This document shows, piece by piece, positions 57,650 to 63,574 of a stretch of DNA of 64,000 nucleotides (its first letter is position 1; each line of letters begins with the position of its first letter). A model generated the notes under the pieces. It did no database searches and was not told where the DNA came from. It saw nothing but the letters and a program-made list of their open reading frames with translations. Location: assembly GCA_015061815.1 (NCBI GenBank), contig SUVW01000006.1, positions 1 through 64,000 on the forward strand, written 5' to 3'. The position numbers were made by a program, and so were the translations under genes. Origin of the DNA: Lentisphaerota bacterium. Lineage in GTDB: Bacteria; Verrucomicrobiota; Lentisphaeria; Victivallales; Victivallaceae.

Positions 57650-59809
57650 ATGCATGGCACTAAAAAATTTTTTACTACCGTAAAAGCATTCTCGCTGGCA
57701 GTTATCGCTTTCCACAGCATTATTCTGTCTGCCGCTCAAACCGACTTTATAAAAGTTCTCCACCGGAGCGATATAGATGATCTGTATGATATAAACATGA
57801 ATTGCCGTTGGCTCAGAGACAATCAAATCGGATTTTCCAATTGGTATAAAACGGCAGATCGCGGCAGAAGTTTTACCAGACAATATGTTGAAAAAAGTGT
57901 AACAGTTACCCTGCTCCTGAATGACAAACCGGTAAAATTCGGCAGATTGTATAATGAAAGTTTCTGGCAGCCGGATAAAATGCGCAGGGTTCATATCGGA
58001 CTTGCCGGAGCCGGTGTGAAAATCAGGCAGGAACTGGCAATTTTCAATGACCAGACAGGTTATCTGGTCAAACTCTCCGGCTTAAAAGGAAAAACCGGTA
58101 CTCTGACTGTCACCTTGAAGAGCATGGGGCAGGGGAAAGGAAGCGTAAAAAACAATCTGGTAACATTTGATATCGATCGGGATTATCACAAAGGTTTCAC
58201 CCACTGCTTTGCAGTGTCGCTCCCTCAAACCTCCACAGCTGAAATAGCAGATGTTTCGGTAACTCCATATCCTGCCGGTTATTCAGTCAAAGACAAAATC
58301 GATACCGAGTCCCGGGCGGTGATAACTGTGCCGGTGGATGGCCAACAGGAAGAAATTGAATTTTTCCTGATCAGTGCTCTGGTAAAAACCGGTAATACCA
58401 TTCCGGTTGATGAGTTGCAGAAAAAGGTAAAAAATCCGGAAGCATTCTTTTCCAGCCGACTCAAAGAATGGCAGGATTATTTCAGCACCGCAGTTCCTGA
58501 ACTGGAAAGCAGTGATATCCGATTGCTGCAATTTTATGCATGGAACTACTATATATTCAAAGCCAACACCTATCTTGACCATGACAATTCTCCGTATTAT
58601 ATCTGTCCGAGTAAAGAGTGGAGCTGGTTGCCATTGAATTGGGATGAAGACAGTGCCCATATTATCAGTGGCGCACGCTGGTTGAATTCTCCTGCACAGT
58701 TGAAAATGATGGAAAATATGTTTTTTCACTTCATGCAAAACTCTTCTCCTCTCAGTTACGGATTGATGACAATGGCAGGATGGGAGTATTATCTGCGAAC
58801 CGGCAGCAAAGAATTTTTGCAGAAAGCTTATGATGCGATAAAAAATATACGTAAGCGATATACAAAAAATATGCGGGGTGATCTGGTCATACAACGCAAC
58901 AGCTTCCTTATCGGGTGGGATGATTCGCTCCGGTACGCCTGGGGAGGATATAATAAAAATCTCCGCAATTTTGAACGTCAGATCATGCCAGTTGATCTTA
59001 ATTCTTATCTGGTCAGGGAATGTCAAATCATGGCAGAAGCTGCAATAATTCTCGGAAAACCGGAAGAAGCTGCCTTCTGGAAAGCGCAAGCAGACAAAAC
59101 ATCCAAAGAAATCCAGCGATTGATGTGGGATGAAAACAGCGGATTTTATTATGATATCTTTGCCGATGATCATACCAAACTGATGTGCAAAGCTTCCAGT
59201 GGTTTTACTCCGATGTGTGCCGGTATCCCGAATCGCAAACAGGCAGAAAAAATGCTGAAACTATTGAAAGACCCCGGAGAATTCGGCAGCCGTTATGCCA
59301 TTCCCACTCTGGCAGTAAGCGAACCGAAACGCGGCAATAACTGGTCAGGCGATATCGCCGGACGCAACAATTGGCTGGTCGAACAAGGCTTGGCGCGTTA
59401 TGACCGGGATTCTTCGGCATGGATCACTGAAAAAACGGTTGAATTATTCATGCGCCGGGAAGGTGCCAGAGCAGGGGGATATATCAAGCCGGACAAACTG
59501 ACAGAAAACCACCGGTTGTTTGTCACGGAAATTGCCGGAGGTCTGGATATGGTGATCCGGCACATCATCGGTTTTACTCCGGAAACAGATGGTTTTTCCA
59601 TTCTGCCCGCTGCGCTGGACAAAAATATGGATCATCTGCGCTGGCAGATTGAATTCAGAGGTAAACAAATTGAAATTTACTGGGACCGTCCGAATGGGGA
59701 TATTAAATTTTCCGGAATTCCGGAAGGGTATTCTGTTTTGATTGATGGTCAACGCGTATTTAACAGTAAATCTATTCCAACCGTCAGAAAAAATTTTCCA
59801 TTAAAATAA
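57650..59809 (+). CDS. Exported (alpha/alpha)6-barrel glycoside hydrolase (GH63/GH37-like)
   Basis: A 719-residue protein with a signal peptide (about 1-29). Residues 35-270 form a beta-sandwich N-terminal domain. The catalytic (alpha/alpha)6 barrel spans about 280-680: WNWDED near 330 as in LNWDEDSAH, the LIGWDDSLRYAWGG Asp block near 421, GFYYDIF near 500, and NWSGDIAGRNNWL near 564, the region that carries the base in clan GH-G enzymes. This fits trehalase/glucosidase/mannosylglycerate-hydrolase relatives; the true substrate is unknown. It has its own promoter with an operator-like repeat. An upstream GGGAG lies about 9 nt before the ATG. Confidence 0.78.
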   Translation: MHGTKKFFTTVKAFSLAVIAFHSIILSAAQTDFIKVLHRSDIDDLYDINMNCRWLRDNQIGFSNWYKTADRGRSFTRQYVEKSVTVTLLLNDKPVKFGRLYNESFWQPDKMRRVHIGLAGAGVKIRQELAIFNDQTGYLVKLSGLKGKTGTLTVTLKSMGQGKGSVKNNLVTFDIDRDYHKGFTHCFAVSLPQTSTAEIADVSVTPYPAGYSVKDKIDTESRAVITVPVDGQQEEIEFFLISALVKTGNTIPVDELQKKVKNPEAFFSSRLKEWQDYFSTAVPELESSDIRLLQFYAWNYYIFKANTYLDHDNSPYYICPSKEWSWLPLNWDEDSAHIISGARWLNSPAQLKMMENMFFHFMQNSSPLSYGLMTMAGWEYYLRTGSKEFLQKAYDAIKNIRKRYTKNMRGDLVIQRNSFLIGWDDSLRYAWGGYNKNLRNFERQIMPVDLNSYLVRECQIMAEAAIILGKPEEAAFWKAQADKTSKEIQRLMWDENSGFYYDIFADDHTKLMCKASSGFTPMCAGIPNRKQAEKMLKLLKDPGEFGSRYAIPTLAVSEPKRGNNWSGDIAGRNNWLVEQGLARYDRDSSAWITEKTVELFMRREGARAGGYIKPDKLTENHRLFVTEIAGGLDMVIRHIIGFTPETDGFSILPAALDKNMDHLRWQIEFRGKQIEIYWDRPNGDIKFSGIPEGYSVLIDGQRVFNSKSIPTVRKNFPLK

Positions 59810-59872: not shown

Positions 59873-60124
59873 ATGAAAAACACCAACCAAAAAACTTTTA
59901 CCCTTATTGAGTCGCTGGTGAAAAGATCACATCTCAATCGTAATCATGCCGATGGAAATCAAGATGGATATTCACCTGTCCTCGGACAGGTGAAGCAGTA
60001 CTGCTTCACCTGTCCTCGGACAGGTGAAGCAGTACTGCTTCACCCTGATCGAACTCCTTGTAGTTATTGCAATTATAGCGATTCTGGCAGCAATTCTGCT
60101 TCCGGCCTTGAACAGCGCACGTGA
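59873..60124 (+). pseudogene. Out-of-frame 5' part of the prepilin-like gene
   Basis: The ATG at 59873 has a strong GGAAGGAG site and starts like a prepilin (MKNTNQKTFTLIESLV). After residue 16 it leaves the prepilin pattern, enters the 34-bp tandem repeat at 59971 and ends at a TGA at 60122. In copy 1 of the repeat it reads KQYCFT and then goes out of frame in copy 2. Removing one 34-bp unit would join it without a stop to the prepilin frame ending at 60779 (290 residues). It is thus the normal start region of a gene that is off in this configuration. Confidence 0.6.
59971..60044. repeat. 34-bp palindromic tandem repeat, 2 copies plus 6 bp
   Basis: Two identical 34-bp units (59971-60004 and 60005-60038) are followed by a partial third (60039-60044). 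Each unit holds two palindromes: 7-bp arms cctgtcc/ggacagg, and gtgaagcag/ctgcttcac across the unit border. Together 59984-60015 is a perfect 32-bp palindrome. As 34 is not a multiple of 3, each gain or loss of a unit shifts the reading frame of the gene around it. Confidence 0.9.
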
Positions 60125-60779
60125 ACGCGGCCGATCCGCGAGCTGTATCAACAATCTCAAACAAATCGGTACCGGATTTGTCATGTACGGCGATGCCAAT
60201 AATGACTGGATCCCCAGAGACACTCCGCACAGCACGTATTTTCATGTGTATTGGAACGGCGCGTGGGGAGATACTTCGGTGGCGAATTATAATTGGACAC
60301 ATGTTATACATCCGTACGTCCCTCTGATTGACACCAGCCATCCGACCGCCCCGGATTACGCTGCCGGTCCGATTGCTCTTTGTCCATCTGATTCGACTCC
60401 CAACGCCGGTATTTTAAATAATCAGCCCCATTCCTGTAATAACCCATCTTATGGACTTAATTACGGTGTGGCTCGTTCCGGTGTGGATCAGGGGTATGGT
60501 ACTGCGGCATATAAAGCCTATGTACCTAAATATGACCGAATCATAAATCCTTCAAAAAAGGTTTTGGTCGCAGATTCAGAAGACAGCAGTGTTATAGGTG
60601 GAAAAAATGCAGCAAATGCGTGTACTGTCGGAGTCGATGTTGGCGTTCCTAATATCGCCAGAAGACACAATAACGGCAGTAATATCCTCTTTGCAACATT
60701 GCATGTCTCAAGCAAAACAGATGCCGAACTTGATTTATTCACCAATGCTGAGGATGGTGAACTGTACGGCTGCAGATAA
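60024..60779 (+). CDS. Prepilin-type N-terminal methylation domain protein (DUF1559-like)
   Basis: If started at GTG 60024 this is a 251-residue protein with a 5-residue leader, then [20 protein letters not shown] (residues 6-25), the type IV prepilin/pseudopilin signature with Glu+5. The residue before the Phe is Cys rather than the usual Gly. The C-terminal domain has [10 protein letters not shown] near 45 and a later [11 protein letters not shown] block, as in DUF1559 or pseudopilin-like exported proteins common in Planctomycetes and Lentisphaerota. The GTG lies in a hairpin arm and has no good Shine-Dalgarno; the better start is the ATG at 59873, which is currently out of frame. Confidence 0.7.
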
Positions 60780-60922: not shown

Positions 60923-63574
60923 ATGAAAAAAATCATTTATTGCTTCTTGGGGTTGTTCTGCTTGCTCACATTTCAGGCAGATGCTCTTTCAATTCCGGCA
61001 TTGAGCAACATCTTGAGTCTGAAAATTTATATATTGCCGGAACAATTGAATAAAGAAATCCTTTTTACCTTCTTTAAAAAAGACAGTAACGGCAGAGCAG
61101 GGGCGGATGCATTGGCCTTTGCGGTTTACTCCCCGTCAGGAAAATCGGTTTTTGAATACAGCATTCCGGATGATGGAGAAACCGGCAATCAGTGGAAGCC
61201 CGGTCCCCGGCAGAAAGCGGAAGTCAGATTTATTCCCCGGGAAAAAGGAGTATATACCCTGCAATTCAAGATGAGTTGCGATGCTTATTTATATTTCGAC
61301 AACAATGAGGTGAAAAACTGTCATATCGGCTTGAGTAATTCCAATTTCCGCACCGGTGGTCCGCATACTCCGGCTCATCTGTACTTTTACCTGCCGGTGA
61401 ATAAGGTCGGCGAATCCGGAATCGTTGATATTTCCAGCAGCTACATGCATTACAATCAAATATCAAACATGAATATTACCGGCGGAGGCAAAGTTTTTTA
61501 TAAAAATTTCACAGCTGCCCCGGCACCGAATAAAACTAAAATATTCGCCCATCACTTTCTTATTGACCGCAAAAATCCGCATACACTTTATGAATTGCAG
61601 GCCTCAAAATTCAGTGTCATTGACTTTGTTCCCAAACTTTATCCGCAATTAACATTTTTCTTCAGCAAAAAAGGAGCTGAAGCTTTCAAACCGTACCTTT
61701 TTAAAAGCAACACTTCCCCAAACTCGATCATTATTTCTGCCACCGATGCAGCAATCCCATTTGCTCTCGGAGCAGGGGAGAGTTACTGTATAAAATACAT
61801 CCCCGGCAAAAAAGAAAAGCAATTCAAATTTTCAGCAGACATTCTGGGAAAAAAATATACATTCGATAATAAAAAAAATACCATTTTATTCAATGCGCCG
61901 CATGACAACTGTTTTCCCAGTATAAAAACAGTTCCACAGGCAGATGGCAAATTCAGCATTACCCGGGTGGTCGAAAAAAGAACCACAATTGAATCCCCCG
62001 CCGATGCCGAGATCATCTCCCCGGTTGACGGCAAAATACATATCAAAGCACTGGAAGTGAAAAAAGCAAAAAAGTATATTTTCAATCTCGTTCATGAACG
62101 GGGCAAAAAAATACAACTTATATCCAATATTCCGGAAACAAGCGGTGAAGCAGCAGAACTTATCCCCGGCGTATGGCAGGTAAGCTGCACGACAGATCGG
62201 GATATTGTGCCGGGACCGCCCAGTTATTTTGCCATAAAGAATCCTGCAAAAACCAGCCCGATTTTTATGCACGGATATATTCCTGCGATGGATTCAAGCG
62301 TAAAATCAGTTAAAGAGATATCTTTAACTTCTCCGGTAAAGCTATCCGACGCGATCGATTTTACTAAAAGCACATTTACGGTTTCCGGAAAAAAATATCA
62401 GGTAAAAGCTCTTGATGGTAATCGCGTAGGAATACCAGGCGAAGGACTTCAGCTCAACAACGGAAAAATCGACATTCAAGCCGATATTTATGACCGGGAC
62501 GGAAACTTCAGTCATTACGAATGGTGTTTTATGCTGAATGCCGACATCCGGAAAACCATCAGCTTCAATTCCGATGGAATAATGATCCTGAACGGCAGAA
62601 AATTTCTGCCATTGATATGTTATCCCCCGGAAATCATTAAAACAGATGACAGCGGATTCAACACTGTTTTGCCAAACACCCTTACGCCATTGCCTGCACT
62701 GGATATTTACCTCAAACAGAATTTAAAAAGTCTGGATTCCGGTTGTGTATTTCGAGGATTCTACACCGCTGCTGACTCAACTCCGCTGCTTGATGTTGAA
62801 CGTTATCTGCAAGGGCAGGGCGGTCGTCATCCGGCCCGTATCGGTGCATGGCTGGATGAAGCAGATGCCCATGTTTCCGATGAATATACCAGAGAAACCT
62901 TGTCCGGATATCAGAAATTTACCACAAACAGCGGTGTGGTCGGCGTTTGTACCACAGGAAGCAATCGCTATGCCGATATGGCGAAAATGGGAGATTATCT
63001 GATGATAGATGTCTATCCCCGGGAAAATGTACTTTCTCTGGATATTTACTTCGCACAAGCCATGAATGATGCTGCCGGGAAACCGGTATGGCAGCTCAAT
63101 CAGGGATTTGACTTCGATTACAGCAACCGGAATCCGGCAACGATGATCCCGGATCCCACGATGTTGAGATACGCTCACTGGGCCGCTTTCAGACACGGTC
63201 TGCAGGGGTTGGGGCTGTACATGTGCGGCGGCAGCCGCTACTGCCTGTATCCATCTATGTGGCAACATGTTGTTGAACTCTACCGGCAGGCGGCAACATT
63301 GAACTTTGTCCTTGTGGAACCTACTGTAACGGAGTCGATTATTTCAACGAAATCCCCATATTTGAAAAGCCGTATACTCCGTTACCGCAACCGGTATTAT
63401 TTGATCATTCAAAATGCCTCAAACAACTCAATTGCCGCAAAAATCAAAGTTAAAGGTGATTTTGATCCACGCGTACGGGTTTTGTTTGAAAACCGTATTG
63501 TACAATTGGATAGAAATTGCTTCTACGATGTTTTTCAACCGTTGGACAGCCGCATTTTTGAGTTAATCAAATAA
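60923..63574 (+). CDS. Large exported protein of unknown function, glycosidase-like C-terminus
   Basis: An 883-residue protein with a signal peptide (about 1-22, ending in ADA) when started at 60923 (GGGAG about 13 nt upstream). The first 560 residues look like several beta-sandwich domains. The region from about 600 to 810 looks like a TIM barrel: FRGFYTAADSTPLLDVER, AWLDEADAHVSDEYTRE with acidic residues, YLMIDVYPRE and PVWQLNQGFD. The end is a small beta domain. I cannot assign a GH family. It follows the exported glycosidase and prepilin genes, suggesting a polysaccharide-related surface role. Confidence 0.65.
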   Translation: MKKIIYCFLGLFCLLTFQADALSIPALSNILSLKIYILPEQLNKEILFTFFKKDSNGRAGADALAFAVYSPSGKSVFEYSIPDDGETGNQWKPGPRQKAEVRFIPREKGVYTLQFKMSCDAYLYFDNNEVKNCHIGLSNSNFRTGGPHTPAHLYFYLPVNKVGESGIVDISSSYMHYNQISNMNITGGGKVFYKNFTAAPAPNKTKIFAHHFLIDRKNPHTLYELQASKFSVIDFVPKLYPQLTFFFSKKGAEAFKPYLFKSNTSPNSIIISATDAAIPFALGAGESYCIKYIPGKKEKQFKFSADILGKKYTFDNKKNTILFNAPHDNCFPSIKTVPQADGKFSITRVVEKRTTIESPADAEIISPVDGKIHIKALEVKKAKKYIFNLVHERGKKIQLISNIPETSGEAAELIPGVWQVSCTTDRDIVPGPPSYFAIKNPAKTSPIFMHGYIPAMDSSVKSVKEISLTSPVKLSDAIDFTKSTFTVSGKKYQVKALDGNRVGIPGEGLQLNNGKIDIQADIYDRDGNFSHYEWCFMLNADIRKTISFNSDGIMILNGRKFLPLICYPPEIIKTDDSGFNTVLPNTLTPLPALDIYLKQNLKSLDSGCVFRGFYTAADSTPLLDVERYLQGQGGRHPARIGAWLDEADAHVSDEYTRETLSGYQKFTTNSGVVGVCTTGSNRYADMAKMGDYLMIDVYPRENVLSLDIYFAQAMNDAAGKPVWQLNQGFDFDYSNRNPATMIPDPTMLRYAHWAAFRHGLQGLGLYMCGGSRYCLYPSMWQHVVELYRQAATLNFVLVEPTVTESIISTKSPYLKSRILRYRNRYYLIIQNASNNSIAAKIKVKGDFDPRVRVLFENRIVQLDRNCFYDVFQPLDSRIFELIK

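Follow-up and report, generated by a model that had tools for sequence, protein, structure and literature searches.

Tandem copies of a gene-specific double palindrome set the predicted reading frame of prepilin-like genes in a Lentisphaerota bacterium and its congeners

The first 64,000 bases of contig C39 from genome G000, a Lentisphaerota bacterium (2,504,329 bases in 44 contigs; this stretch is referred to as the window, and L and G numbers denote our loci and genomes), carry a prepilin-like gene whose start and core lie in different frames. The well-equipped ATG at 59873, preceded by AAGGAAGGAG, opens a frame that translates to MKNTNQKTFTLIESLV and terminates at 60122–60124 after 83 codons. 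The prepilin core FTLIELLVV, starting at 60039, is in a different frame. Between them lie two tandem copies of a 34-bp unit, each composed of two abutting palindromes (P1 and P2). The features of the locus are as follows, in window coordinates.

59873 to 60124, plus strand: leader frame as found, with an ATG equipped with a Shine–Dalgarno (SD) sequence, FTLIESLV, an insert module, both units and a stop after 83 codons
59897 to 59919, plus strand: first, diverged FTLIESLV motif heading the insert module, KRSHLNRNHADGNQDGYSPV; related modules in L001, L005 and L115
59971 to 60004, plus strand: unit copy 1, 34 bp, with the P1 palindrome at 59971–59994 (arms TTCACCTGTCC/GGACAGGTGAA, loop tc), then P2
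60005 to 60038, plus strand: unit copy 2, 34 bp, exactly equal to copy 1; P1 loop tc, orientation unchanged
60024 to 60043, either strand: P2 core palindrome GTGAAGCAGTACTGCTTCAC of copy 2 (VKQYCFT), whose right arm is formed by the gene's own TTCAC codons
60039 to 60779, plus strand: prepilin core and DUF1559 body, 246 codons and stop

Tandem Repeats Finder reports the array at 59971–60044 (period 34, 2.2 copies, 100% match) as the only one of 26 rows in the 64-kb window with a period above 21. A preliminary description of this DNA had placed two such units between start and core, and translation reproduced its reading of the frame: two copies lead to the stop at 60122, and removal of one unit leaves the frame from 59873 open for 290 codons. 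Since 34 exceeds a multiple of three by one, the in-frame copy numbers 1, 4 and 7 that it gave follow by arithmetic. It correctly saw the second core as out of frame but located it near 60036 instead of 60039, and it missed the in-frame insert module (KRSHL...) that follows FTLIESLV and recurs in the three loci listed above. That the palindrome doubles as coding sequence is borne out, as GTGAAGCAGTACTGCTTCAC, also present in copy 1 at 59990–60009, is perfectly palindromic and is read as VKQYCFT in the frame of the core. Its suggestion that the repeat grew from the gene itself holds for P2, whose 3' arm coincides with the FTL codons of the gene and whose neighbouring arm tracks them, but not for the loop-side part of P1, which has no counterpart in the gene. 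The window locus has a tandem unit, with a length that is not a multiple of three, within or ahead of the coding frame.

The product is predicted to be a prepilin-type DUF1559 protein. It matches PF07596 (DUF1559) with 38.3 bits (cut-off 23.3) and TIGR02532 with 22.6 bits (cut-off 16.3), while PF07963, at 20.6 bits, falls slightly short of its cut-off (21.2). The GspG major pseudopilin model TIGR01710 is matched with 28 bits against a threshold of 88.85. For three further two-unit genes of G000 (L031, L034, L038), the Pfam search did not list PF07596. The window protein may conceivably act at the surface or as a pseudopilin in polysaccharide use.

Each unit can be described by three arms, A, B and C, with A:B forming P1 and B:C forming P2, and C consists of the gene's own TTYACNYT (FTL) codons. 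Because reflection in P1 followed by reflection in P2 equals a shift by twice the distance between their centres, A and C form a direct repeat with a spacing of one period. This period is 34 in the window, where A and C share a microhomology of 6 bp, the hairpins lie between them, and the double palindrome sits immediately 5' of the cleavage-site codons. As single-stranded DNA, bases 59965–60050 fold to −33.7 kcal/mol versus −10.0 (standard deviation (s.d.) 2.3) in 200 shuffles (z −10.2). As A, B and C overlap, P1 and P2 compete, and the A:B and B:C hairpins are mutually exclusive. Chance does not account for the design, as it was found in 0 of 1285 shuffled leaders.

The palindrome unit of the window gene is not a one-off. 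Among the stretches fetched from G000 are 82 prepilin-motif sites with up to one mismatch, and 45 of the 68 sites with a hydrophobic core carry both P1 and P2. Over all stretches, from this and related genomes, whose loci were reached by search rank and not randomly, the double palindrome is present at 124 of 269 core sites; the underlying filter asks for a hydrophobic core after FTL, which places sites with an insert module directly after FTL (L115, L223) outside the 269. The period is 34 in 88 of the 124, the others being 31 (7), 32 (6), 33 (1), 35 (9), 37 (3), 38 (7) and 40 (3), so that it is divisible by three only once and 123 units are not a multiple of three. Twelve congeners carry it (G001, G002, G003, G004, G005, G008, G012, G023, G024, G025, G036 and G037), the last at locus L395, the first sampled core site of this genome (1) having been without it. 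The few core sites sampled from G006, G007, G009, G011 and G032 (one each) and G010 (two) lack it, as does the one core site each from G014, G015, G016, G018, G019 and G020, which belong to the same order. Further afield, in named genomes, 80 loci (the best 80 of 432 relatives) supplied 90 plus-strand FTL sites, none of which has the double palindrome or an array. The preliminary description proposed searching the genome for other prepilin genes with the same unit; many have its design, but with differing sequences: the units are gene-specific. Matches to the prepilin N-terminus reach 109 per congener genome, and the named relatives found are largely metagenome-assembled genomes of Lentisphaeria/Victivallales and Verrucomicrobia.

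The structure of the unit is conserved while its sequence drifts, as seen in strong covariation in both palindromes. For P1, 88 single-unit sites chosen on P2 only were analyzed, and the seven inner pairs are Watson–Crick in 501 of 616 cells, compared with 260 (s.d. 10, maximum of 1000: 290) when the 3' letters are re-dealt and 144–183 when they are slid by 1–3 bases. For P2, the nine pairs are Watson–Crick in 565 of 621 cells at 69 sites chosen on P1 only, versus 427 (s.d. 7, maximum 449), and the TTY wobble base is paired with B at 67 of the 69 sites; as the tested sites are kin, these controls give association and not probability. A recounted set of 91 sites holds 66 distinct P1 inner arms. 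The P1 mismatches (G.T 31, C.A 23, other 61) give no clear indication that RNA, as opposed to DNA, is the molecule under constraint.

Frame states were assigned where upstream sequence was sufficient, by the presence of an in-frame ATG with an SD sequence and a leader no shorter than 9 nt. Such a start is found in 100 of 101 one-unit genes. The exception, L080, is a truncated prepilin gene (L080:677-740, FTLIEHLVIIVIIAILSNSN, then stop) that has retained the double palindrome. In the two-unit core genes, the corresponding count is 0/20 as found and 20/20 when they are read at one unit. These genes, six each in G000 and G023, three in G012, two each in G001 and G024 and one in G008, make up 20 of the 121 unit-bearing core genes with resolved state. 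As read from the sequence, copy number decides the predicted reading frame in the two-unit core genes. The array copies are identical in all 20, with an exact run exceeding the period by 2 to 8 bases, and, in the 12 arrays examined, the downstream core frame runs without a stop for 125 to 251 codons (several being cut by the stretch end). This indicates that the two-unit states are recent events and not decayed genes. The core filter leaves out three more arrays: L115, with 158 codons as found and 355 with one unit fewer, as well as L223 and L354, whose frame state was judged by eye from three-frame translations.

Relatives offer a further view of these genes. A DNA search of congeners with the window gene matched only its N-terminal region and the downstream gene. 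Hence, the protein bodies of the window gene, L053, L031 and L038, that is, four of the six two-unit genes of G000 (L034 and L068 were left out), served as queries against 34 genomes of the genus. Seven counterparts with 38–59% body identity were read (L384, L387, L389, L390, L392, L393, L394). In six of them, a single unit is present and the ATG is in frame (an insert module follows the ATG in L387 and L394), and the contig ends within the seventh, L390. Copy number varies between species in one clear case: L038 of G000 has two copies and is out of frame, whereas L389 of G004 (59% body identity) has one copy in frame, the units differing by one base. The other counterparts carry different unit sequences and inform on the state of the gene, not on the same unit.

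The sequence data probably reflect phase variation by gain and loss of the hairpin unit, with the window gene, a prepilin-like (DUF1559) gene, caught in the OFF state. The on/off switch envisaged in the preliminary description is supported by the two-unit core genes of six genomes, none with an in-frame SD-equipped ATG and all restored at one unit, and by the counterparts of four of them. In this process, the replicating strand would slip between A and C, assisted by the hairpins, and thereby duplicate the unit. The longer exact repeat so created (40 bp in the window) would then ease loss of a unit, which would render the change reversible. With two units, the leader peptide would end early, and little or no prepilin would be made. 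A population may thus be a mosaic of ON and OFF prepilins and may benefit from this diversity. Switching should remain local to each gene, because the unit sequence changes from one gene to the next. Strand bounce, with template switching at the two palindromes, was also considered as the source of the second unit, yet it would invert the P1 loop from tc to ga, and both copies in the window read tc. For the more far-reaching idea of a genus-wide combinatorial switch, in which dozens of prepilin genes per genome possess private, geometry-maintained double palindromes and one/two-unit slippage toggles only the gene concerned, we see the arguments as evenly balanced.

Several points weigh against phase variation. 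The missing multiples of three may be inherited from a single 34-bp ancestor, since in-frame indels preserve this property, and slippage alone does not explain why the palindromes are maintained. Some in-frame ATG, GTG or TTG past the last stop is held by 11 of the 20 two-unit genes, in three of them with an SD score above 3 (L158, ATG 6 nt before FTL, 4.4; L068, internal GTG, 5.5; L156, internal GTG, 3.3), so that the OFF state may be leaky in some genes. Furthermore, every resolved array has two copies, and three or more were never seen, though free slippage should yield some. This last point is softened by five loci with N gaps inside such arrays, as short-read assembly may hide copy numbers of at least three.

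Alternatively, the instability could be unselected. The double palindrome would then be kept for other reasons or re-perfected by template switching, and two-unit alleles would be frequent loss-of-function mutations that are later lost. Template switching is reported to homogenize the arms of inverted repeats (PMC8604942), the identical copies in two-unit alleles indicate youth, and unit lengths that are not multiples of three can be inherited. However, a two-unit state in 20 of 121 genes is high for plain loss of function, and the core frames are otherwise open as far as fetched, which makes this explanation unlikely.

The mutually exclusive A:B and B:C hairpins also resemble an attenuator, and unit number could alter the setting of a regulatory RNA leader that tunes translation or transcription. 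The competition of P1 and P2 enforced by the overlapping arms would suit this function, and a known pilus switch joins repeat number, leader peptide and terminator (PMC3894217). Yet the P1 mismatches show no clear wobble excess, and P2 keeps a fixed position relative to the FTL codons and not to the start, which lies at a variable distance (39 to 132 nt at one unit). A regulatory leader is accordingly regarded as improbable.

The preliminary description had named an assembly error at the palindrome as its main alternative. The assemblies are indeed fragmented, and five prepilin leaders (L143, L154, L212, L221, L369) contain 100 N flanked on both sides by the same unit, with a flank overlap of 38–41 bases, which shows the difficulty for the assembler; these were counted in neither class. 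However, of 22 arrays tested (L354 was left out), 17 have 21-mers, and all 22 have 33-mers, found on neither strand of the one-unit form, so that de Bruijn assembly from one-unit DNA cannot yield them at k=33. Five arrays (L031, L115, L197, L315, L372) have no 21-mer beyond the one-unit form and are not excluded at k=21, whereas the window array needs foreign k-mers already at k=13. Moreover, the array period follows the gene's own hairpin geometry in 20 of 20 cases (31, 32, 34, 35, 38) and not one k-mer size, and the overlap at the gaps equals unit plus microhomology, as would be expected of a real unit-to-unit loop. An artefact is largely excluded by the k-mer test and appears very improbable. 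A scan of 670,834 bases (overlapping loci counted, loci of named genomes outside the scan) gave 24 exact tandem duplications with a period of 20–120, of which 22 adjoin an FTL motif, L354 lies slightly further off in a leader and L120 elsewhere; as the DNA was drawn mostly around prepilins, this enrichment is biased.

That the palindromes are a hot spot for exchange of leader modules or prepilin bodies is scarcely credible: the same leaders often contain in-frame modules flanked by duplicated FTLIELLV motifs, but these keep the frame in the cases translated while the units break it, and no recombinase or exchange event was seen, though none was looked for.

The modules were observed in the window (59897–60004) and in L001, L005, L006, L042, L047, L049, L052, L071, L072 and L078, where they extend the leader. 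Several recur nearly unchanged across genes and genomes (...KRKFSLSPAHS, ...SSHLHIFTQSA), and the insert module is possibly a mobile repeat. Contig breakage at the hairpins was considered for the seven core sites with less than 150 nt upstream (L078, L187, L191, L193, L204, L226, L231) and rejected, as the sequence there enters a long repeated insert module and not the unit, their contigs ending inside the repeat just 5' of the prepilin core. The window gene is flanked upstream by a glycoside-hydrolase-like gene (57650–59809; PF22422 with 99.7 bits, also trehalase and rhamnosidase families) and downstream by a gene for an 883-amino-acid protein (60923–63574) that has no Pfam or NCBIfam match at E 0.001. 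The DNA of the latter gene matches G008 (75%) as well as G036 and G025 (68%).

If the genus-wide combinatorial switch holds true, private sequences would prevent cross-talk between paralogues, and one genome could give rise to very many surface states without a recombinase or simple-sequence repeat. Phase variation by the hairpin unit would add a class of contingency loci that is encoded in structure and free of a fixed sequence (31–40 bp, one or two copies), in an uncultured lineage; scans for simple repeats or invertible DNA are not designed for such loci. Selection of hairpin geometry itself as a mutation-rate device would then become testable.

Phase variation by repeat number is known, whereas a private, geometry-conserved double palindrome across a gene family appears not to have been described as far as our search of open-licence PMC papers shows, which revealed nothing naming a unit of this kind in prepilins of Lentisphaeria or Victivallis. 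In pneumococcal cap3A and similar capsule genes, reversible out-of-frame tandem duplication leads from one to two copies, with varied size and place. Here, by contrast, the unit is preset, has a conserved geometry and occurs in a gene family. Homologous recombination of tandem duplications is named as a mechanism of localised hypermutation in one review (PMC4235727). Coding palindromes with template switching as the proposed cause of concerted arms are described from mitochondria of Nematomorpha, which represent other biology, and the description found contains no copy-number frame switch (PMC6649704). The nearest precedent found is pil1 of Streptococcus gallolyticus, where pil1 and pil3 undergo phase variation through GCAGA repeats located in the gene for a leader peptide (PMC3894217). 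Both systems share a unit that is not a multiple of three, a repeat number that sets the frame, pilus genes and more than one locus per genome. In S. gallolyticus, a simple 5-bp repeat with about 20 copies lies in an upstream leader peptide gene with a terminator, and the frame change raises expression (PMC3894217). In the prepilin genes described here, a double palindrome of 31–40 bp with one or two copies is located inside the gene, the frame change breaks the gene, and the sequence of the unit differs across dozens of genes.
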